From Microbispora sp. NBC_01189 (lineage in GTDB: Bacteria > Actinomycetota > Actinomycetes > Streptosporangiales > Streptosporangiaceae), in the NCBI RefSeq assembly GCF_036010665.1, contig NZ_CP108581.1, positions 4,445,501 through 4,509,500 on the forward strand: 64,000 nucleotides of DNA, written 5' to 3'. The translations under genes and the position numbers were made by a program. Positions within the stretch are counted from its first letter, which is position 1, and every line of letters starts with the position of its first letter. This document shows, in pieces, positions 23,531 to 32,355 of the stretch. The notes beneath the pieces were generated by a model. The model was not told the DNA's origin, made no database searches, and saw only the letters and a program-made list of their open reading frames with translations.

Positions 23531-24727
23531 ATGGACAGCGCTCTGTACGTCTTCGTCGAGGACCTGCGCGCCGAGGGCGTGCGCGGGCTGCTCGACCGGG
23601 CCTCCACATACGGCGTACGCGGCGTCGCGGTGGCCGCGGCCTACCACCGGGCCAGGGACGTCACCCCGCACGGCGCCACGCGGCTGACGCTGCGCGGTGA
23701 CGGCGTCCACTTCCCTCCGCCGGAGGACCTGTTCGGCGGGCTGCGCCTGGCTCCGCCCGTACAGCCGGGAGCGGAGGACCGGCCGGTCGGGGAACTGCGC
23801 GCGGCCTGCGCCGAACGGGGGATGCGGCTGCACGGCTGGACGGTCTTCCTGCGCAACGCCGCGATCGGCCTGGCCTGCCCCGACGTGACGGTGGAGAACT
23901 GCTTCGGCGACCGCGGCGCTCCGGCGGACCTGTGTCCCGCGCACCCCGACGTGCGGGCGTACGCGGTGGCGCTGGCCCGGGCCGTCGCCCGGCAGGGGGT
24001 GGACACGGTCGTGGCCGAGGCGCTGCACTTCGCGCCCTTCGGCTATGAGCGGTGCTCGGTGCCGCTCGGCCCGATGGACGCCTTCCTGTTCGGCCTGTGC
24101 TTCTGCCCCCACTGCATGAGCCGGGCCGCCGACCTCGGGGTGAACGCCGAGACGGCGAGGCAGGAGTGCGCGAGGATCGTCGGGGGCGTGCTGGACGGCG
24201 ATTCCCCGGCGGAGGGCGAGGTCACGCGGGCGGCGCTGACGGCCTACGCCGGCCCGGAGGCGGTGGCGTACGCGCGGGCCCGCTCCGAGAGCGTCACCTC
24301 GCTGGTGGGCGAGGTCGCGGCCGCCGTCACGGCGGAGGGCGCGCGGCTGACGTTCACGGACGCGACGGGAGGGGCGAAGGGCTACGCCCAGGGGCTCCCC
24401 TCGGCCGGCCTGGCCGCGCACGACTCCTGGCAGCTCGGGATCGACCTGGTGGCGCTCGGCGACATCGTCCCGTCGTTCGCGGTCCTCGGCTACGCCCGGG
24501 ACCCCGCCCGGATCGCCGACGACGTCGCCGCCTACCGCCGTTCGATCGGCAAGAACCCCGAACTGCGTGTCGTGCTGCGACCGGGCGCCCCCGACACCGA
24601 TTCGGCCGACCGGCTCGCGGCCAAGGTCCGCGCCGCCCGTACGGCCGGGGCCGGCGCCGCCGACTTCCACGCGTACGGCCTGGCCTCCTTCGACGCGCTC
24701 GCCCGTATCGCCGGCGCGCTCGCCTGA
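23531..24727 (+). CDS. Unrecognised 398-residue protein, possible TIM-barrel hydrolase fold
   Basis: I do not recognise the family with confidence. The protein alternates hydrophobic strands and helices as in a TIM barrel: GVRGVAVAAAYH, MRLHGWTVFLRN, VDTVVAEALHFAPFG, PSFAVLGYARDP, GAADFHAYGLAS. It carries a Cys-x-Cys-x-x-Cys stretch (FGLCFCPHCMSRAADLG), as seen in some glycoside-hydrolase-like bacterial proteins, and conserved-looking acidic residues in TVVAEALHF. No signal peptide or membrane helix is present. GGGGGG-rich sequence precedes ATG 23531. It converges on the SARP gene. A carbohydrate-active role is a guess. Confidence 0.8.
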   Translation: MDSALYVFVEDLRAEGVRGLLDRASTYGVRGVAVAAAYHRARDVTPHGATRLTLRGDGVHFPPPEDLFGGLRLAPPVQPGAEDRPVGELRAACAERGMRLHGWTVFLRNAAIGLACPDVTVENCFGDRGAPADLCPAHPDVRAYAVALARAVARQGVDTVVAEALHFAPFGYERCSVPLGPMDAFLFGLCFCPHCMSRAADLGVNAETARQECARIVGGVLDGDSPAEGEVTRAALTAYAGPEAVAYARARSESVTSLVGEVAAAVTAEGARLTFTDATGGAKGYAQGLPSAGLAAHDSWQLGIDLVALGDIVPSFAVLGYARDPARIADDVAAYRRSIGKNPELRVVLRPGAPDTDSADRLAAKVRAARTAGAGAADFHAYGLASFDALARIAGALA

Positions 24728-24862: not shown

Positions 24863-27229
24863 TTATTTCACGATGACGTCACCCTGCGTTTCGTGCGTCG
24901 CGGCGAATTCGGGCGCGAGTTCCCGGTACCGGGTGCGGATTTCGGCCGCGGCGGCGGGGGCGCCGAGATCGGCGAAGGCGACGCCCGCGGTCCGCAGCGC
25001 GCCGAGGCACTCGTCGCGGCGCCCGTCGCCGTGGTGCGCCTCGGCCAGCCCGCGCAGCATCACGGCCTCGCCGAGGGCGTCTCCGGCCCGGCGGCAGGCC
25101 GCCAGTGCGAACCGGTGCGTCCGCTCCACGTCGGCCCACCGCGCGCGTACGGCCGAGACGTTCGGAAGCGTGGCGGCCAGTTCCCAGGCCAGGTCGGTCA
25201 GACCCAGGGCGCCCGCTTGGAAGACGGCGGCGACAAGGCCGGCCAGCTCGCTCTCGAACCAGCCGAGAGGGTCGGCGAGCACTCCCGCGCGGACCTCGGC
25301 CGGAGGCGGCCAGCGGGGCGCTCTGCCGCGCACCGGGGCGTACCGGGGTGGCGGGAGGCGCTCGTCGGCCTCCTGCGCGAGGGCCAGGAGAGTGGCGAGG
25401 GTACGAGTGATCCTGACGTGTACGGCGCTGTCGATCTCGGCCGCGGCGGCCTGCTCACGAGCGAAGCGGCGGACCAGCTCATGGAACCGGTAGCGGGTCC
25501 GCCCGGTGCCGTCCGGCCGCGCGACCTCCAGCAGTCGGGCGTCGGCCAGGGCGTCGGCGATCTCTTCGGCCGACTCCGGCGACGTCTCCAGCATCATCGC
25601 GATGGTCCAGACCGGGAACGACGGAAGATCGAGGAGCCCGAGCAGGCGTAAGGTGCGCTGCGCGGTCTCGCTCACCCGGCGGTAGCCGGCGGCGACGCAT
25701 CGCCTGACGTCCAGGTCTCCCAGGGCGAGCTCGTCCAGCCCTTCCCCGGCGAGCCGCCCGGCGACCCGGGCGAGGGCCCAGTGCGGACGGGCGGTGAGGC
25801 GTGTCCCGGCGGCGCGGAGCGCCAGCGGCAGGCCGCAGCACAGCCGGACGATCTCGGCCGCGTTCTCGGGCTCCGCGTCGACGCGCTCACGCCCGAGCAT
25901 CTCGGCCAGCATGTCGTGCGACTGCTGGAACGAGAGCGTGCCGAGGTCGAACGACGCGGCGCCCGGCCAGCCGGACAACCGCGAGCGGCTGGTGACGAGG
26001 ACCGCGCAGGTACACGAGCCCGGCAGCAGTGGCCGGACCTGCGCGTAGCCGTCGACGTCGTCCAGGACGACGAGGATGCGGCGTCCCGCCAGCTGGCTGC
26101 GGTACAGGTCGACGCTCTCCTCCAGATCTCTGGGCAGGGCCGCTTCGTGGACGCCGAGCGCGCGGAGGAACCGCGCGAGCACCCGTGCGGGGTCCGCCGG
26201 CCGCTCGCCGGTGCCACGCAGGTCGGCGTAGAGCTGGCCGTCCGGGAAGGCGTCGCCCAACTGGTGCGCCACGTGCACGGCCAGGGCCGTCTTGCCCACG
26301 CCGCCCTGCCCGCTGATGACCGCCACGGCGACCGGGCCGGGCCCGCGGCCCGCCAGCGCGCCACGGATCCGGCTCGCCTGCTTCTCCCGGCCGAAGAAGC
26401 CGGCGATGTCGGGGGGCAGCAGAGACGGCCGGAGCGTTCCCGCGGAAGCCGGCCGGTCAAAGGGAGAGGACGGCGCGGCGTCCTGCCGCAGCACCCGCAG
26501 GTGCGCCCCCCGCAGCTGGGGGCCGGGGTCGATGCCGAGCTCGTCCGCCAGCCTGGTGCGGATGGACTCGTACTCCGCCAGCGCCTCGGCCTGCGCCCCG
26601 GCCGCGGCGAGGGCGAGCACGAGCCAGGAGTGCACGACCTCGCTCAGCGGCTCGGCCGCGGCGACGGCCCGCAGCTGGGGGAGGACCTCGGCCGGCATGC
26701 CGAGATCAAGGGCCGTCTTCGCGCATTCCAGCAGGACGTTCATGCGTTCCCGGTCGATCGCGTGGACCCAGGGGTGACCCTTGAGCACGTGGTCCAGGTC
26801 CGCCAGGCAGGGGCCCTGCCACATCTCCAGCGCCCTCAGCAGCGGCCCCAGGGACTCGCGCGGCGAGCCGGCCGACCTGGCCTCGGCCACGAGCGCGCGG
26901 AAGCGGACGAGGTCCGAGTCGCAGCGGTCCGGCCGGATCGCGTAGGCCGTGCCGAGCCCGGTGAGCAAGGAGGAGCGGGAGCGGGCGACGTGGCCCGGCT
27001 CGAGACGGCGGCGAAGCCGGCCCACGTAGGTCTGCACGAGGTTGACCGCCGAGCCGGGCGCGTCGTCGCCCCAGACGGCGTCGATGATCTCCTGCCGCCG
27101 GACGGGCGTTCCGGCTTTGAGGAGCAGGAGCGCGAGGACGGCCTTTTGCCTGTCCGAGCTCAGCGTTATTTCGGTCTCATCGTGCCATATCCGTAACGGG
27201 CCCAGCAGGTGGAACCGTAACACGGGCAT
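24863..27229 (-). CDS. SARP-type regulator with NB-ARC and TPR domains (AfsR/DnrI-like)
   Basis: 788 residues. An N-terminal OmpR-like winged helix (FHLLGPLRIWHDETEI, SDRQKAVLALLLLKAG, VWGDDAPGSAVNLVQTYVGR) is followed by the bacterial transcriptional activation domain (~100-245). The NB-ARC ATPase has P-loop ISGQGGVGKTALAVHVA and Walker B RRILVVLDDVDGY, and a C-terminal ~200 residues of helical TPR-like repeats close the protein. ATG 27229 follows AGGAGGG. Members activate secondary-metabolite or peptide genes. This one faces the 26-codon peptide operon across a 293-base AT-richer gap and is the likely cluster-situated activator. Confidence 0.92.
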   Translation of the reverse strand: MPVLRFHLLGPLRIWHDETEITLSSDRQKAVLALLLLKAGTPVRRQEIIDAVWGDDAPGSAVNLVQTYVGRLRRRLEPGHVARSRSSLLTGLGTAYAIRPDRCDSDLVRFRALVAEARSAGSPRESLGPLLRALEMWQGPCLADLDHVLKGHPWVHAIDRERMNVLLECAKTALDLGMPAEVLPQLRAVAAAEPLSEVVHSWLVLALAAAGAQAEALAEYESIRTRLADELGIDPGPQLRGAHLRVLRQDAAPSSPFDRPASAGTLRPSLLPPDIAGFFGREKQASRIRGALAGRGPGPVAVAVISGQGGVGKTALAVHVAHQLGDAFPDGQLYADLRGTGERPADPARVLARFLRALGVHEAALPRDLEESVDLYRSQLAGRRILVVLDDVDGYAQVRPLLPGSCTCAVLVTSRSRLSGWPGAASFDLGTLSFQQSHDMLAEMLGRERVDAEPENAAEIVRLCCGLPLALRAAGTRLTARPHWALARVAGRLAGEGLDELALGDLDVRRCVAAGYRRVSETAQRTLRLLGLLDLPSFPVWTIAMMLETSPESAEEIADALADARLLEVARPDGTGRTRYRFHELVRRFAREQAAAAEIDSAVHVRITRTLATLLALAQEADERLPPPRYAPVRGRAPRWPPPAEVRAGVLADPLGWFESELAGLVAAVFQAGALGLTDLAWELAATLPNVSAVRARWADVERTHRFALAACRRAGDALGEAVMLRGLAEAHHGDGRRDECLGALRTAGVAFADLGAPAAAAEIRTRYRELAPEFAATHETQGDVIVK

Positions 27230-27522
27230 TTCCCTCCTGTGGAATCGGGAGTCAATTCCGGAAATCTGGAGAATCATACGATTCGACGGAATAGTGATCG
27301 AGATTGCGGTGTGTCCAGTAACGGCCAATCCTTTCCGGTGGCCGATCACCCCGCCCGGCACGCTCCGTCCCGCCCGCCGCCCGCCGCCCGCCGCTGACAC
27401 TCCACTGGCGGTCGGCTGGACGCTCCCGCGCCCGGTACGGCCCCGCGTTCAGTACGGCGCCGACGCCGATCCAGTCCCGGCGGTCATGGTGGGCGTAGAC
27501 CAACTGCGGGAGGAGGTGCGAG
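27230..27522. promoter_or_regulatory. Divergent control region of SARP gene and peptide operon
   Basis: The first 80 bases are markedly AT-richer than the rest of the window. On the minus strand a perfect TATGAT (27273-27278) fits a -10 box for the SARP gene. It is overlapped by the dyad GAATC-ATAC-GATTC (27271-27284), and further GGAAT/ATTCC half-sites lie at 27241, 27255 and 27288. These could be operator sites. I could not place a convincing -35 or -10 box for the peptide gene, nor the spaced heptamers that classic SARP proteins bind. Confidence 0.5.
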
Positions 27523-27603
27523 ATGAAGAAGATCAAGATTCGCAAGGCCGGTCCGGTCCGCCTGACGGCCGCGGCCTGCTCCATCTACAAGAACCCGAAC
27601 TAA
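27523..27603 (+). CDS. 26-residue candidate RiPP/secreted-signal peptide precursor
   Basis: A short frame with a near-perfect ribosome-binding site (GGGAGGAGG, 6 bases before ATG). The first eight residues are strongly basic (five Lys/Arg), the middle is Ala/Gly/Pro/Val/Leu, and the end is TAAACSIYKNPN with one Cys, one Ser, one Tyr and one Thr that could be modified. Codons are GC-rich except the Lys/Ile start. A hairpin follows 15 bases after the stop, then the PqqD-like/M50 protease gene. Size, strong translation signal, hairpin and the presence of a peptide-binding-type domain next door argue that this is a peptide precursor. The mature product and any modification are unknown. Confidence 0.72.
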   Translation: MKKIKIRKAGPVRLTAAACSIYKNPN

Positions 27604-27618
27604 CGGGTTCCGGGCGGT

Positions 27619-27648
27619 GCGCCGGGTACGGGATGCCGCACCCGGCGC
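27619..27648 (+). terminator. Attenuating hairpin after peptide gene
   Basis: Perfect 9-base arms (GCGCCGGGT and complement) enclose a 12-base loop. The hairpin stands 15 bases after the peptide stop and 100 bases before the protease start. In RiPP operons such a hairpin lets precursor mRNA exceed enzyme mRNA; that role is inferred. Confidence 0.65.
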
Positions 27649-27748
27649 TCCGTTCACCCCACCGCGCCGTCCACTGGGCCGTCCACTGGACCGGCCGCCA
27701 CCGGCCCGGATGCTCCGCGCACCCCCGAGATCGCAGGAGGACCGTCCC

Positions 27749-29062
27749 TTGACCGATGCGGAGGCCGTGCACGACGAGCCGGCGATCCGGTACGACCTCG
27801 ACCGGTCGCTCCCGCTGCACCCGCTCGTCTACCTGGAGGAGGGCGAGGAGGTCACGGTCGGCAGGCCGGACACCGACTCCTACGGCATCTTCCCGCCCGA
27901 CGGCGCCGAGGTGCTGCGCAGGCTGGAGGAAGGGATGCCGCCGCGCGAGGCGGCCGTCTGGTACGAGGCCCGCTACCGGGAGAGCCTGGACATCGACGAT
28001 CTCGTCGCCGCGCTCGACGAGCTCGGTTTCGTCCGGAACCCCGGCGCGGCGGGCGCGGCGGGCGCGGATGGCGCTGATCGCACGGGTGACGCGGGCACGA
28101 ACGACACGGGCGCGAATCACCCGGGCATGGGGGACACCCCCGTGCGCTGGCGGCGGCTGGGCGCGGCGCTCTTCTCCGCCCCCGCCTGGGTCTGCTACGG
28201 GCTGCTCGTCGCGTGGGCGCTGGTCCTGATGATCCGGCGGCCCGACCTGGCGCCCCGCTACCACAACGTCTTCTTCACCGACTACTACACCCTGATCCAG
28301 GCGTCGCTGTTCGTGGCGGCGGTCCCGCAGCTTCTGCTGCACGAGGGCTTCCACGCGCTCGCCGGGCGGCGGCTGGGCCTCCGCTCCCGGCTGCGCATCT
28401 CCCGGAGGCTCTACTTCGTGGTGCTGGAGACGTCGCTGGACGGTCTGGTCGCCGTGCCCCGGCGGAAGAGATACCTGCCGATCGTGGCCGGGATGCTGGC
28501 GGACGTGGTCGTGATGGCCGTTCTCACCATCGTCGCCGACCTCCTCCGTGACCCGGGCGGCGGGCTGTCCTTCTGGGGCCGGTTCTGCCTGGCGTTCGCC
28601 TTCGCCGTCCTGCTCCGGATCCTGTGGCAGTTCTCCCTGTACCTGCGCACGGACCTGTACGTCCTCGTCTCCACCGCGCTCGGCTGTGTCGACCTGCACG
28701 GGACGGCCGTGCGGGTGTTGCGCAACCGGGTGAACCGGCTGCTCGGCCGCCGGGACCGGCTGGTCGACGAGTCGGACCGGCACCCGGTGGACCGGCGCGT
28801 CGCCCGCTGGTACTCCTGGTTGATCGTCGCCGGTTACACGGTGAGCCTCACCACCTTCCTCGTCGCGATCGCCCCGATCGTCTACGGGATGTTCGCCGGA
28901 GTGATCGGCCGGTTCACCGGTCGCGGCGCCTCCTGGTCCGAGCTGCTGGACTCGCTGATCTTCTGCGGGTTCGTCGCCGGGCAGCTCGTCGTCCTCGCGT
29001 GGGTGACCGTCCGTGACCGGCGCCGCGGCCGGGCACGGCGGCTCGACCACGTCATCGCCTGA
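27749..29062 (+). CDS. PqqD-like domain fused to M50-type membrane metalloprotease
   Basis: 437 residues, starting at TTG 27749 with AGGAGG 8 bases upstream. Residues ~10-95 resemble a PqqD/RRE peptide-binding domain (YLEEGEEV ... SYGIFPPDGAEVLRRLEEG ... LDIDDLVAALDELGF). An Ala/Gly/Asn/Thr linker follows. The remaining 300 residues have about six membrane helices and the zinc motif H198-E-G-F-H202 in LLHEGFHALAGRRLGL, as in site-2 protease-like M50 enzymes; an Asp in the later GMLADVVVM helix could be the third ligand. Known RRE domains hold leader peptides, so this protein plausibly binds the 26-residue precursor and cleaves or exports it at the membrane. It is 11 bases from the TPR gene. 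Confidence 0.85.
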   Translation: MTDAEAVHDEPAIRYDLDRSLPLHPLVYLEEGEEVTVGRPDTDSYGIFPPDGAEVLRRLEEGMPPREAAVWYEARYRESLDIDDLVAALDELGFVRNPGAAGAAGADGADRTGDAGTNDTGANHPGMGDTPVRWRRLGAALFSAPAWVCYGLLVAWALVLMIRRPDLAPRYHNVFFTDYYTLIQASLFVAAVPQLLLHEGFHALAGRRLGLRSRLRISRRLYFVVLETSLDGLVAVPRRKRYLPIVAGMLADVVVMAVLTIVADLLRDPGGGLSFWGRFCLAFAFAVLLRILWQFSLYLRTDLYVLVSTALGCVDLHGTAVRVLRNRVNRLLGRRDRLVDESDRHPVDRRVARWYSWLIVAGYTVSLTTFLVAIAPIVYGMFAGVIGRFTGRGASWSELLDSLIFCGFVAGQLVVLAWVTVRDRRRGRARRLDHVIA

Positions 29063-29073
29063 GAAGGAGCACC

Positions 29074-31215
29074 ATGGCCACCCATCACTGGATCAGGGCC
29101 GCCCGGCGCCGCGACCGCGAGCTGTACCGGAGCCGCCTCGACCTCCCGCCGGTCCTGGCCGTGCTCGACGCCCACCGCCGGCTGCGCGGGCCGTACACCG
29201 CCGCGGGCACGCTGGTGCGGTCACTCGTGCCGGACGCGCTGGAGCGCAGGCCGGAGTGGGGCCCCGCCCACAACATCGAGATCATCACCAGCGCTCCGGA
29301 GCTCGCCCCCCTGGTGCCTCCCATATGGACGTCGCTGGAGTGGACCGCGCACGAGGGGGAACGCACCAGGTTCTACTCCCGGCTGCACACGCTGAACATC
29401 GCCAACGGCCTCGCCGAACTGCTGCGCGACCACCTGCGGGAGGCGGGCGGCGAGCCGCGGACACTCGTCTTCGAGAACGTGCACCAGGCGGACCCGACGG
29501 ACCAGGAGTTCGTCGCCGTCCTGCTCCGCCGCGGTGACCTCGGCGGGCTGACCGTCGTGGTCGGCACCGGGACCGAGCCGATCGCCGACCCCCCGGGTGA
29601 GATCGCCGTCTCCCTCGCCCGCGTGCTGGAACGCCACGCCGTACGCGCCGACGCGCCGGAAGGCACCGACCCCGGCCCGGCCTCCGGCACGGGCACTGGC
29701 ACTGGCACCGGCCCGGTGGCCGCCGCGCGGGCGTACGTGAACGGCGACGGGACGAGCGACGACCCCCGGCTGCTCGACGCGTACGAGCGGCTGGACGGTG
29801 CGGAGCGGGCGCGGTTGCACGACGAGCGGGCGGCGGAGCTCGCGGCCCGCGGCGAGTTCTCCCTGACGCTGGGCGCGATCCCCTTCCACGCCGAGCACGG
29901 CGGAGACCCGGCCGGCGCCGGCCTGGCCGCTCTGCGGCAGGCGCTGGACCACTGCCGCGGCGTCGGCCTCTACCAGGCGGCGGCGGACCTCGGCCTGCGC
30001 GGCAGGGCCATCGTGGACCGGTCCGTCCAGGAAGAGCTGTGGTGGCACTTCACGAACGCGACCAGCACCACGCTCGCCTCACTCGGGCGGGCGGACGAGG
30101 CCCTGGCCGTCTACGACGAGGCCCGCGCCGTCACCGCCGACCCCGTCGTCCACATGGAGCTCGGCTACAGCACCGCCATGCTGTACGCCCGGCACTTCCC
30201 CGAGCCGCGACGGGACTACCAGCGGGCACGGGCCTGGATCAATCTGTCGATCGCCATCGCCTCCCTGATGGAGGATCCCAAGAAGCGCGCCTTCCACACG
30301 GTCTTCGGGCACAACGGCCTCGCCCTGGTGGAGGTGCGGGAGAGGCGGGCCGACGAGGCGCTGCGCATGCTGGAGGAGGGCATGGCCAGGCTGGACCGGG
30401 AGCTCGGCCCGGGCGAGCACGCCCTGCACCGGGCGGTGCTGCGGTACAACCGCGCCCAGGTGCTCGGCCAGATGGGCCGGCTGGAGGAGGCGCTCCGCGA
30501 CTACCTGGCCGTCGTCGAGCTGGACCCCGACTTTCCCGAGCACCACTTCAACATCGCCAACATCCTGCGCCGGCTCGGCCGTGACGAGGAGGCGATCGTC
30601 TCCTACGAGGAGGCGCTGCGCCTGTCGCCGCCGTTCCCCGAGGCCTACTACAACCTCGGCGACACCCGGCTCGAACTCGGGGACGTGGGCGGGGCGCTGT
30701 CCGACTTCGGCTACACGCTCGAACTGGACCCGGCGCATCTGGACGCCCGGATCAACCGGGCCGGGCTGCTGTGCGAGCTGGGCCGGGCCGACGACGCGTG
30801 GGCGGACGTCACCGCGGGGCTGGAGCTCGCCCCGGCCAACCCGCACCTCCTGTGCCTCAAAGGACGGCTGCTCGCCGAGCGGGAGGACCACGACGGCGCC
30901 CGTGCGGCGCTGTCGGCGGCGATCGGCCACGACGGGCGGCTGGCCGAGGCGTGGGCGCTGCGGGGCGAGATCGCCTACGCCGCGGGTGACCTCACCGAGG
31001 CCGCACGCGACCTCGACCGGGCGGTCGAGCTGGGGGAGACTCCCGAGATCCGGTTCAACCGGGCTGTCGTTCGCCAGGAGTCGGGCCGCTACGGCGACGC
31101 CGCCGCGGACTTCGAGGCCGTCCTGGCCGCCACCGGCGACGAGGAGAGCCGGGAACGGCTGGATCTCTGCCTGGCGGCGCTGCGCGGCCAGTCGTCCACC
31201 GGCGTGCCGGCCTGA
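29074..31215 (+). CDS. TPR protein with degenerate STAND-like ATPase front
   Basis: 713 residues, start ATG 29074 after GAAGGAG. The front ~200 residues look like the AAA/STAND ATPase that opens LuxR-family LAL proteins. The Walker B-like LVFENVHQADPTDQEFVAVLLRR has Asn where catalytic Asp normally stands, and the P-loop position reads GPYTAAGT, lacking the lysine of G-x-x-x-x-G-K-T, so nucleotide binding is doubtful. A Gly-Thr repeat linker follows. Residues ~330-700 form ten or so tetratricopeptide repeats (e.g. ALRDYLAVVELDPDFPEHHF). It has no DNA-binding domain. It probably scaffolds the peptide-processing machinery. It lies between the protease and oxidoreductase genes with 11 and 18-base gaps. 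Confidence 0.85.
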   Translation: MATHHWIRAARRRDRELYRSRLDLPPVLAVLDAHRRLRGPYTAAGTLVRSLVPDALERRPEWGPAHNIEIITSAPELAPLVPPIWTSLEWTAHEGERTRFYSRLHTLNIANGLAELLRDHLREAGGEPRTLVFENVHQADPTDQEFVAVLLRRGDLGGLTVVVGTGTEPIADPPGEIAVSLARVLERHAVRADAPEGTDPGPASGTGTGTGTGPVAAARAYVNGDGTSDDPRLLDAYERLDGAERARLHDERAAELAARGEFSLTLGAIPFHAEHGGDPAGAGLAALRQALDHCRGVGLYQAAADLGLRGRAIVDRSVQEELWWHFTNATSTTLASLGRADEALAVYDEARAVTADPVVHMELGYSTAMLYARHFPEPRRDYQRARAWINLSIAIASLMEDPKKRAFHTVFGHNGLALVEVRERRADEALRMLEEGMARLDRELGPGEHALHRAVLRYNRAQVLGQMGRLEEALRDYLAVVELDPDFPEHHFNIANILRRLGRDEEAIVSYEEALRLSPPFPEAYYNLGDTRLELGDVGGALSDFGYTLELDPAHLDARINRAGLLCELGRADDAWADVTAGLELAPANPHLLCLKGRLLAEREDHDGARAALSAAIGHDGRLAEAWALRGEIAYAAGDLTEAARDLDRAVELGETPEIRFNRAVVRQESGRYGDAAADFEAVLAATGDEESRERLDLCLAALRGQSSTGVPA

Positions 31216-31233
31216 CCGAGGAGGGACGCCGCG

Positions 31234-32355
31234 ATGCCCGACCTGTTCGAGCCCGATCTGTTCGAGACCGGCCTGTTCGAGACCGTCCGGCTGGGGCGCC
31301 TCCGGCTGCCCAACCGGCTGGTGATGGCGCCGATGACCCGCAGCCGTGCCGACCGCCGGGGGGTGCCCACGCCGGAGACGGCCCGTTACTACGCGCAGCG
31401 GGCGAGCGCGGGGCTGATCGTCACCGAGGGCGCCCAGCCGAGCCTGGCCGGCCAGGGGTACCCCGGCACTCCCGGCCTGCACACCGACGCGCAGGTCACG
31501 GGCTGGCGGCCGGTGACGGACGCGGTGCACGCGGCCGGCGGCCGGATCTTCGCCCAGCTCATGCACGCCGGCCGGATCGGCCACCCGAGCCTCAGCGGGC
31601 TCCGGCCGGTGGCGCCGTCGCCCGTGCGGGCCGCCGGGCGGATCCACACGCCTGCCGGTCATCGCGACCTTCCCGTGCCCCGCGAGCTCACCACCGCCGA
31701 GGTGCGGGCGACGATCGCCGACTTCGCGCGTGCCGCCCGGCGTGCCGCCGACGCCGGCTTCGACGGTGTCGAACTGCACGGCGGCAACGGCTACCTCGTC
31801 CACCAGTTCCTCTCCCCGGCCACCAACCGGCGAGGCGATCCGTACGGGCGCGACCGCATCCGTTTCGCCGCCGAACTGTGCGCGGCCGTGGCGGAGGCGG
31901 TCGGCGGCGACCGGGTGGGGCTGCGTGTCACGCCGGGCAACCCGTGCAACGACATGGCGGAGGACGACGTCGAGGAGGTCTATCCGGCTCTGGCCGCGGC
32001 CCTCGCCCCGCTCGGCCTCGGATATCTCCACCTCGCCGGCGTCCAGGCCGCCGCGCCCCTCGCCGTGCGGATCCGCGCCGCCTGGCCCGGCGTCCTCGTG
32101 GCGGCGCCGAGCACGGGAGGCGCGTTCCCCGCCGACGGCGGCAGGGCCGAGGGTGAGCGCTGGCTACGCCACGGCGCCGACCTCGTCGCCTTCGGCCGCG
32201 CCTTTCTCGCCAACCCGGACCTGGTGGAGCGAATGCGGGCCGGCGCGCCGCTGAACCGTCCCGATCCCACGACCTACTACGGCGGCGGTGAGCAGGGCTA
32301 CACCGACTACGCGCCTTCCTCCGCCGTCACGGTGTCCGCTCGGCCGGGCTCGTAG
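31234..32355 (+). CDS. Old Yellow Enzyme family FMN oxidoreductase
   Basis: 373 residues, an (alpha/beta)8 NAD(P)H:flavin oxidoreductase (OYE/NemA type). Motifs: RLPNRLVMAPMTRSRA (FMN loop), ASAGLIVTEGAQPS, FAQLMHAGRI, GFDGVELHGGNGYLVHQFLSP (substrate/FMN signature, with G-G in place of the usual A-A/H-A) and VAFGRAFLANPDLV (phosphate-binding end). It reduces activated C=C bonds with NAD(P)H. The N-terminus carries a curious triple repeat of DLFE/GLFE units (DLFEPDLFETGLFETV). GAGGAGG precedes ATG 31234, 18 bases after the TPR stop, so it is in the peptide operon, where it might reduce a dehydro-residue; equally it may be a general detoxifier. Confidence 0.93.
   Translation: MPDLFEPDLFETGLFETVRLGRLRLPNRLVMAPMTRSRADRRGVPTPETARYYAQRASAGLIVTEGAQPSLAGQGYPGTPGLHTDAQVTGWRPVTDAVHAAGGRIFAQLMHAGRIGHPSLSGLRPVAPSPVRAAGRIHTPAGHRDLPVPRELTTAEVRATIADFARAARRAADAGFDGVELHGGNGYLVHQFLSPATNRRGDPYGRDRIRFAAELCAAVAEAVGGDRVGLRVTPGNPCNDMAEDDVEEVYPALAAALAPLGLGYLHLAGVQAAAPLAVRIRAAWPGVLVAAPSTGGAFPADGGRAEGERWLRHGADLVAFGRAFLANPDLVERMRAGAPLNRPDPTTYYGGGEQGYTDYAPSSAVTVSARPGS

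Follow-up and report, generated by a model that had tools for sequence, protein, structure and literature searches.

The stretch of DNA analysed here (64,000 nucleotides, hereafter the window) lies within the 7.37 Mb chromosome of Microbispora sp. NBC_01189. It contains a very short open reading frame (ORF) in front of genes for a membrane metalloprotease, a TPR protein and a flavoenzyme, with a SARP regulator gene on the opposite strand. A preliminary description had read this arrangement as an uncharacterised peptide system, and the positions it gave for the SARP, peptide, hairpin, protease, TPR and Old Yellow Enzyme (OYE) features were borne out. RRE denotes the recognition element domain of ribosomally synthesized and post-translationally modified peptide (RiPP) pathways.

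24863..27229, minus strand: SARP regulator (BTAD and NB-ARC; Pfam scan), divergent, optional
27508..27518, plus strand: ribosome-binding site of the peptide gene, GGGAGGAGGTG, with similar sites in relatives
27523..27603, plus strand: gene of the 26-residue peptide, product MKKIKIRKAGPVRLTAAACSIYKNPN (ORF and relatives)
27615..27652, plus strand: hairpin separating the peptide gene from the operon (folding against shuffles)
27749..29062, plus strand: RRE-fused site-2 (M50) membrane metalloprotease, likeliest start TTG (HEGFH at residues 198-202, Asp252)
27803..28045, plus strand: RRE domain of the protease, about residues 19-99 (predicted fold)
29074..31215, plus strand: TPR protein with a degenerate STAND-like N-terminal part lacking Walker A (Pfam scan and family rows)
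31234..32355, plus strand: OYE (FMN ene-reductase), optional (Oxidored_FMN)

The short ORF at 27523-27603 was confirmed as a genuine, unannotated peptide gene. Its product consists of a leader-like N-terminal part (KKIKIRKAGPVRLT) and a core-like part, AAACSIYKNPN, with Cys19 and Tyr22 (positions counted from Met1 of MKK). The strong ribosome-binding site ascribed to the gene is present at 27508-27518, and similar sites together with the peptide were found again in relatives. Indeed, when homologous operons were aligned, as had been proposed beforehand, all 27 loci that combine protease and TPR protein proved to encode a peptide of the same family, which precedes the called protease start by 11-314 nt (28 peptides, two of them at locus L060; the 11-nt minimum stems from L055, where the protease start was called too far upstream). 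The reading frame shows the codon conservation expected of a gene, since synonymous changes dominate in close relatives: between the window and 13 of them the first 23 codons differ at 3-7 synonymous and 0-3 nonsynonymous sites, mainly in third positions. Across 67 peptides entropy is low at positions 2-4, 6-8, 10 and 14, so that a conserved leader precedes a more variable core, and the ends are diverse in the protease-linked peptides. The proposed hairpin was substantiated as well: the segment 27604-27665 folds at -41.3 kcal/mol (z -3.7, 200 shuffles), and the 60 bases 3' of the stop codon are more stably folded than their shuffled versions (z<-2) for 27 of the 28 protease-linked peptide genes, the exception being L066. 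For peptides without a protease (types A, B and D, see below) the same holds in 10/19 cases of types B and D and in 1/20 of type A. A known RNA element was rejected, as Rfam at gathering thresholds returned only a tRNA in the whole window. Neither SARP-type direct repeats upstream of the peptide (27200-27760) nor a sigma-70-like promoter or intrinsic terminator (27200-27800) was detected.

A protease homologue is encoded in 115 of 345 genomes of the order. The close type (at least 44% identity) occurs in 25 genomes with 26 loci, and a phylum search added one locus from another family (G204), giving the 27 loci with protease and TPR protein; these counts share descent and are not independent observations. 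Named records with a close relative belong to Streptosporangium, Sphaerimonospora, Sphaerisporangium (a metagenome-assembled genome) and Planobispora (6 loci). Among the matches listed 40 loci (L045-L084) were fetched and examined for a TPR gene and a peptide; further, weaker matches of about 30% identity lie beyond this set. Genes in fetched loci were called by a home-made codon-usage caller with approximate starts; L055 was called too long. L084, a 4.2 kb contig, lacks gene calls and is for that reason not among the 28 peptides; the peptide encoded there has Cys and Tyr, and a partial TPR match is located on the same contig. At L050 (811-8978) and in the matching L062 region a same-strand run upstream of the protease locus, perhaps another biosynthetic cluster, comprises formyltransferase-like, class-III aminotransferase, HAD, BFD-like ferredoxin, PmbA/TldD-like, methyltransferase-like and periplasmic-binding genes. 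For L050 the aminotransferase (PF00202) and a methyltransferase of the MTS type were identified in this run, and shared gene clusters indicate the same for L062.

The product of 27749-29062 had been called a membrane metalloprotease, and HEGFH at residues 198-202 with an invariant Asp252 agrees with this; the HExxH motif, the distant Asp and the membrane domain are those of site-2 (M50) proteases. TTG is the likeliest start, judging by start positions in relatives. For the designation of the N-terminal domain as PqqD-like the outcome was mixed. The predicted fold is that of an RRE (residues 19-99 of the structure model, with RREs as top PDB matches), whereas the sequence gave the PqqD label no support because the domain has no Pfam match at E<=1; the first 104 residues alone had no match in a sequence search against the PDB. 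With this modelled RRE domain and a conserved short ORF upstream of the protease in 27/27 loci, the locus has the arrangement of an RRE-dependent RiPP pathway. None of the three outcomes that would have refuted the preliminary reading (absence of a conserved short ORF, lack of codon conservation, an N-terminal domain of another fold) was observed. The same genome carries a second RRE-protease-like gene (G000:C1:3542002-3543129, L083; 30% identity) near a ThiF gene, where no peptide was found with the search pattern used.

The TPR protein (29074-31215) has many TPR matches in Pfam and a partial AAA_16 match below the Pfam cut-off (18.2 vs 32.6 bits). Walker A motifs are present in 0/53 rows of the TPR family and in 35/35 SARP-cluster rows (second copies of up to six loci included in both sets), so that the label "pseudo-ATPase" is a fair description. 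When three TPR proteins were scanned with sequence profiles, sub-threshold AAA_16 came up but no helix-turn-helix (HTH) family. An RRE concealed in the N-terminal part was rejected (profile comparison probability 0.1%; two matches at E 1.4 in a PDB sequence search).

The tight operon can be upheld: the order is peptide, protease, TPR protein, and the gap between the latter two genes is 1-25 nt in 22 of 27 loci. The ene-reductase (31234-32355; Oxidored_FMN, E 4e-66) and the divergent SARP with BTAD and NB-ARC domains were likewise correctly recognised, but neither is a fixed member of the set. OYE directly follows the TPR gene on the same strand in 10/27 loci; a flavin-reductase-like protein takes its place in seven and lies on the opposite strand in three more, and seven have neither enzyme (PF01613 was confirmed for the protein of L050, the remaining ones being assigned by clustering). 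A divergent SARP gene adjoins the peptide in 15/27. As stated in the preliminary description, no classical RiPP enzyme is found among the four operon and SARP proteins scanned. A defence system was discarded, as PADLOC gave no match at E<=0.001 for the M50, TPR, OYE and SARP proteins. Adjoining the SARP gene, positions 23531-24727 encode a 398-residue protein that matched neither Pfam nor NCBIfam at E<=1.

The constant partner of the peptide is the TPR protein, even where the protease is missing. Among 342 genomes of the order 159 have relatives of the TPR N-terminal part, as do 15/15 of the genus, and the own genome has three by profile (four matching stretches in another search) and three peptide-TPR pairs. 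In a phylum sample of 296 genomes 40 had some match to the TPR profile, which was near full length only in the own genome and G204 and partial in G163; the others were shorter stretches, mostly of the AAA-like part. A peptide-profile search yielded weak matches directly upstream of several other TPR genes. Of all matches in this search, most of those with E above about 0.005 include frames inside long ORFs and may be due to chance. In 19 of 20 protease-free loci fetched before that search (L115-L134) a 24-25-residue peptide precedes the TPR gene, L127 having none. A further set (L199-L218) gave 20/20, which is not fully blind because at least 7/20 had already matched in the peptide-profile search; here the distance from the end of the peptide to the TPR match is 571 nt in L213 and at most 175 nt in the others. 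Together, 39/40 protease-free loci and 66/67 of all loci have the tiny peptide. As a control, 400 random 900-nt stretches of L115-L134 had a 95% point of 36 and a background maximum of 38; eleven higher values (60, 92-121) fall in the range of true peptides, which random stretches can hit. The TPR protein is thus the steady partner, whereas protease, OYE and SARP come and go.

Protease-free pairs recur in common neighbourhoods (type A, 11 loci; type B, 4 loci), and type D comprises other contexts. In type A (L116:7842-12162 and relatives L117, L121-L126, L128, L129, L134) the genes of a regulator-like TPR protein, a GNAT acetyltransferase, a 24-residue peptide with the end HKG and the TPR protein form a same-strand run, in which the peptide might be a target of the GNAT. 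In 7/11 type A loci the stop codon of the peptide gene and the called TPR start overlap. Type B pairs follow genes that we take to be smc and ftsY, labels given by eye with no database match behind them, as are purU, XRE-type, LacI and MFS for other neighbours. Conservation of type A peptides is moderate, with 1185 synonymous vs 1085 nonsynonymous codon differences in pairwise comparison (185 vs 2052 in frame +1).

A feature beyond the preliminary description is a Cys plus Tyr pattern in the core. Position 22 is His in 39/39 protease-free peptides, 20 of which end HKG, whereas 28/28 protease-linked peptides have Tyr at 22 or 23; a Cys after the LT motif is found in 28/28 of the latter vs 0/39 of the former, before or after the Tyr and at variable spacing. 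That new protease-TPR loci would carry both residues was set down before 364 genomes of the class were searched. Five new loci were obtained (two with protease and TPR protein, two with ThiF, one with neither TPR nor ThiF). Both new protease-TPR loci, from two other families, encode peptides with Cys and Tyr (..TSAAIYATPLCWPV, ..AMACYCYGCCCCGGRAAI); the peptide of the locus with neither partner has Cys and no Tyr. Counting L084, 31 of 32 protease-TPR peptides carry both, the exception being encoded on a plasmid of Streptomyces NBC_01450 (..SAPFSHQPAIVPV). A tree of 47 TPR proteins places all protease-linked ones on the same side of a single branch (support 97/96), and the His/Tyr contrast may therefore reflect one event. 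The shifting position of the Cys is the better sign of function. One protease-linked peptide, at L236 (G646:C29), has an extremely Cys-rich core (ACYCYGCCCCGG).

More distant proteases (about 30-35% identity) have a ThiF protein in place of the TPR protein (11 fetched loci; PF00899 confirmed for one). A short ORF precedes ThiF in eight of them, with ends such as ..KIEVRKVEAVKATQFMT, and none was found in L072, L076 and L083 with the pattern used. In eight loci (L070, L071, L074, L075, L077-L080; 20 kb, e.g. L070:10669-11772 and upstream) SARP, tiny peptide, ThiF-type adenylyltransferase and the same protease type occur together, which gives the impression of a distinct RiPP-like locus whose core is very short. 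An RRE in the ThiF relatives was not retained, given weak profile support (hhalign probability 21.5%, E 0.001). The leader type KIxVRK appears tied a second time, via the ThiF loci, to RRE-bearing partners.

The gene set had been thought to match no described RiPP class, and among papers with an open licence none was recognised that describes the peptide-protease-TPR set. The RRE-M50 fusion by itself is not new: in the daptide protease MpaP/DapP an RRE is N-terminally fused to an intramembrane site-2 protease, and daptides, too, come from Actinomycetota with short precursor ORFs beside the fused peptidase (PMC10036551). Their leader motif is ELExMEAP, in contrast to KKIxVRKxGxVRLT here, and their C-terminal Thr is invariant; alongside the protease the window operon encodes a TPR protein and a flavoenzyme, but not the daptide aminotransferase, methyltransferase, alcohol dehydrogenase and MpaB-like gene (PMC10036551). 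Neither ELExMEAP nor an invariant C-terminal Thr occurs in any of the 28 protease-linked peptides, and none of the daptide enzymes (the alcohol dehydrogenase being Fe-dependent) was found among the M50, TPR, OYE and SARP proteins and two further window genes scanned. Epipeptides need a radical SAM epimerase, and none was seen here. EpeP of epipeptides and TglG/TmoG of pearlins are likewise membrane M50 proteases acting on ribosomal precursor peptides, but a pearlin is a single modified residue formed on a scaffold peptide, of which no sign was seen here (PMC10885120). Pantocin A and GRC, RiPPs made with ThiF-like adenylyltransferases, resemble the distant relatives that pair the same protease type with ThiF and a related leader, and differ from the window operon, which has no ThiF (PMC12250964). 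Further literature drawn on is PMC12710340 and PMC7470986.

We consider the locus, with a probability of about 0.5, a RiPP-like micropeptide maturation system with RRE guidance, a Cys/Tyr core, an intramembrane protease and a TPR partner. Given the strong ribosome-binding site and the hairpin after the stop codon, the 26-residue peptide would be produced in excess over the enzymes. RRE fold and leader conservation suggest that its N-terminal half, KKIxIRKxGxVRLT, pairs as a beta-strand with the protease RRE. The C-terminal part would be the core, in which Cys and Tyr (31/32 peptides) seem both to be required, most likely because they are modified or joined; OYE or the PF01613-type flavin reductase may take part where present. 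The site-2 protease domain would then cut the peptide at the membrane and free the core. The TPR protein, linked to the peptide at nearly every locus, would be its dedicated binding partner as carrier, scaffold or receptor; where a SARP is present, it probably activates the operon. Production of a modified peptide from this locus is our inference, for which the Cys/Tyr pattern is indirect evidence, and so are binding, cleavage site, modification and export.

A less likely explanation, which draws on most of the same evidence, is that the protease frees an unmodified C-terminal pheromone, with the TPR protein as intracellular receptor and SARP or the type A regulator-like TPR protein as output. 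RRNPP pairs and leaderless communication peptides similarly join a very short peptide gene to a TPR gene, with several pairs per genome (three in the own). RRNPP receptors bind the peptide of the neighbouring gene with a C-terminal TPR domain; a TPR protein and an adjoining peptide gene are present here, and their products may interact. In Rgg, NprR and PlcR the N-terminal part is an HTH, which Rap-type members lack; here a degenerate STAND-like part replaces it, the host is an actinomycetotal one and the leader is of RRE type. The peptide upstream of the TPR gene or operon in 27/27 protease-linked and 39/40 protease-free loci, core types that follow TPR clades and the SARP gene beside 15/27 loci would fit a signal. 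Against it, the three TPR proteins scanned showed no recognisable DNA-binding domain, and no secretion signal or importer was noticed, though neither was searched for; a plain pheromone would not need an RRE on the protease and leaves the Cys plus Tyr pattern unexplained. Signalling and maturation could hold together.

Less probable still is that the TPR protein keeps the peptide permanently as a small subunit, so that no product is released and the protease only governs the turnover of the peptide. The recurring protease-free neighbourhoods, the stop-start overlaps in type A and the nearly fixed ends of protease-free peptides (HKG in 20/39) speak for this, but the cores of protease-linked peptides differ widely in both sequence and length, which is more in keeping with a product than with a subunit, and the RRE-protease fusion suggests processing. 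Very unlikely is a cis-acting leader peptide that regulates the downstream gene by ribosome stalling without any function of the peptide. ORFs of 24-30 codons upstream of a gene to be regulated, the overlap in type A and the hairpin in the protease-linked type would suit it; nevertheless, the same family precedes M50, TPR and ThiF genes whether or not there is an overlap or a hairpin, the neighbourhood also encodes an RRE, and the N-terminal half is conserved as well as the end.

Beyond the maturation reading of this locus, we tentatively suggest, at rather less than even odds, an undescribed class of ribosomal micropeptides, mostly of 24-30 residues, with the leader MKKIxV[RH]KxGxVxLT and paired (66/67) with a degenerate STAND-like TPR family in this order. 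One branch would have a nearly fixed His peptide and no protease, the other an RRE-site-2 protease and Cys and Tyr joined or modified by new chemistry. What the gene set suggests is a RiPP-like pathway in which no modifying enzyme is recognised and a RiPP-style leader-binding protease is joined to a TPR protein with a tiny peptide gene upstream; the Cys/Tyr vs His rule yields a directly testable prediction of which residues change. The locus indicates a system, so far undescribed, that makes peptides or signals with them. Should the peptides prove to be signals or modified products, one to several such systems have gone unnoticed in many genomes of the order (TPR family in 159/342).

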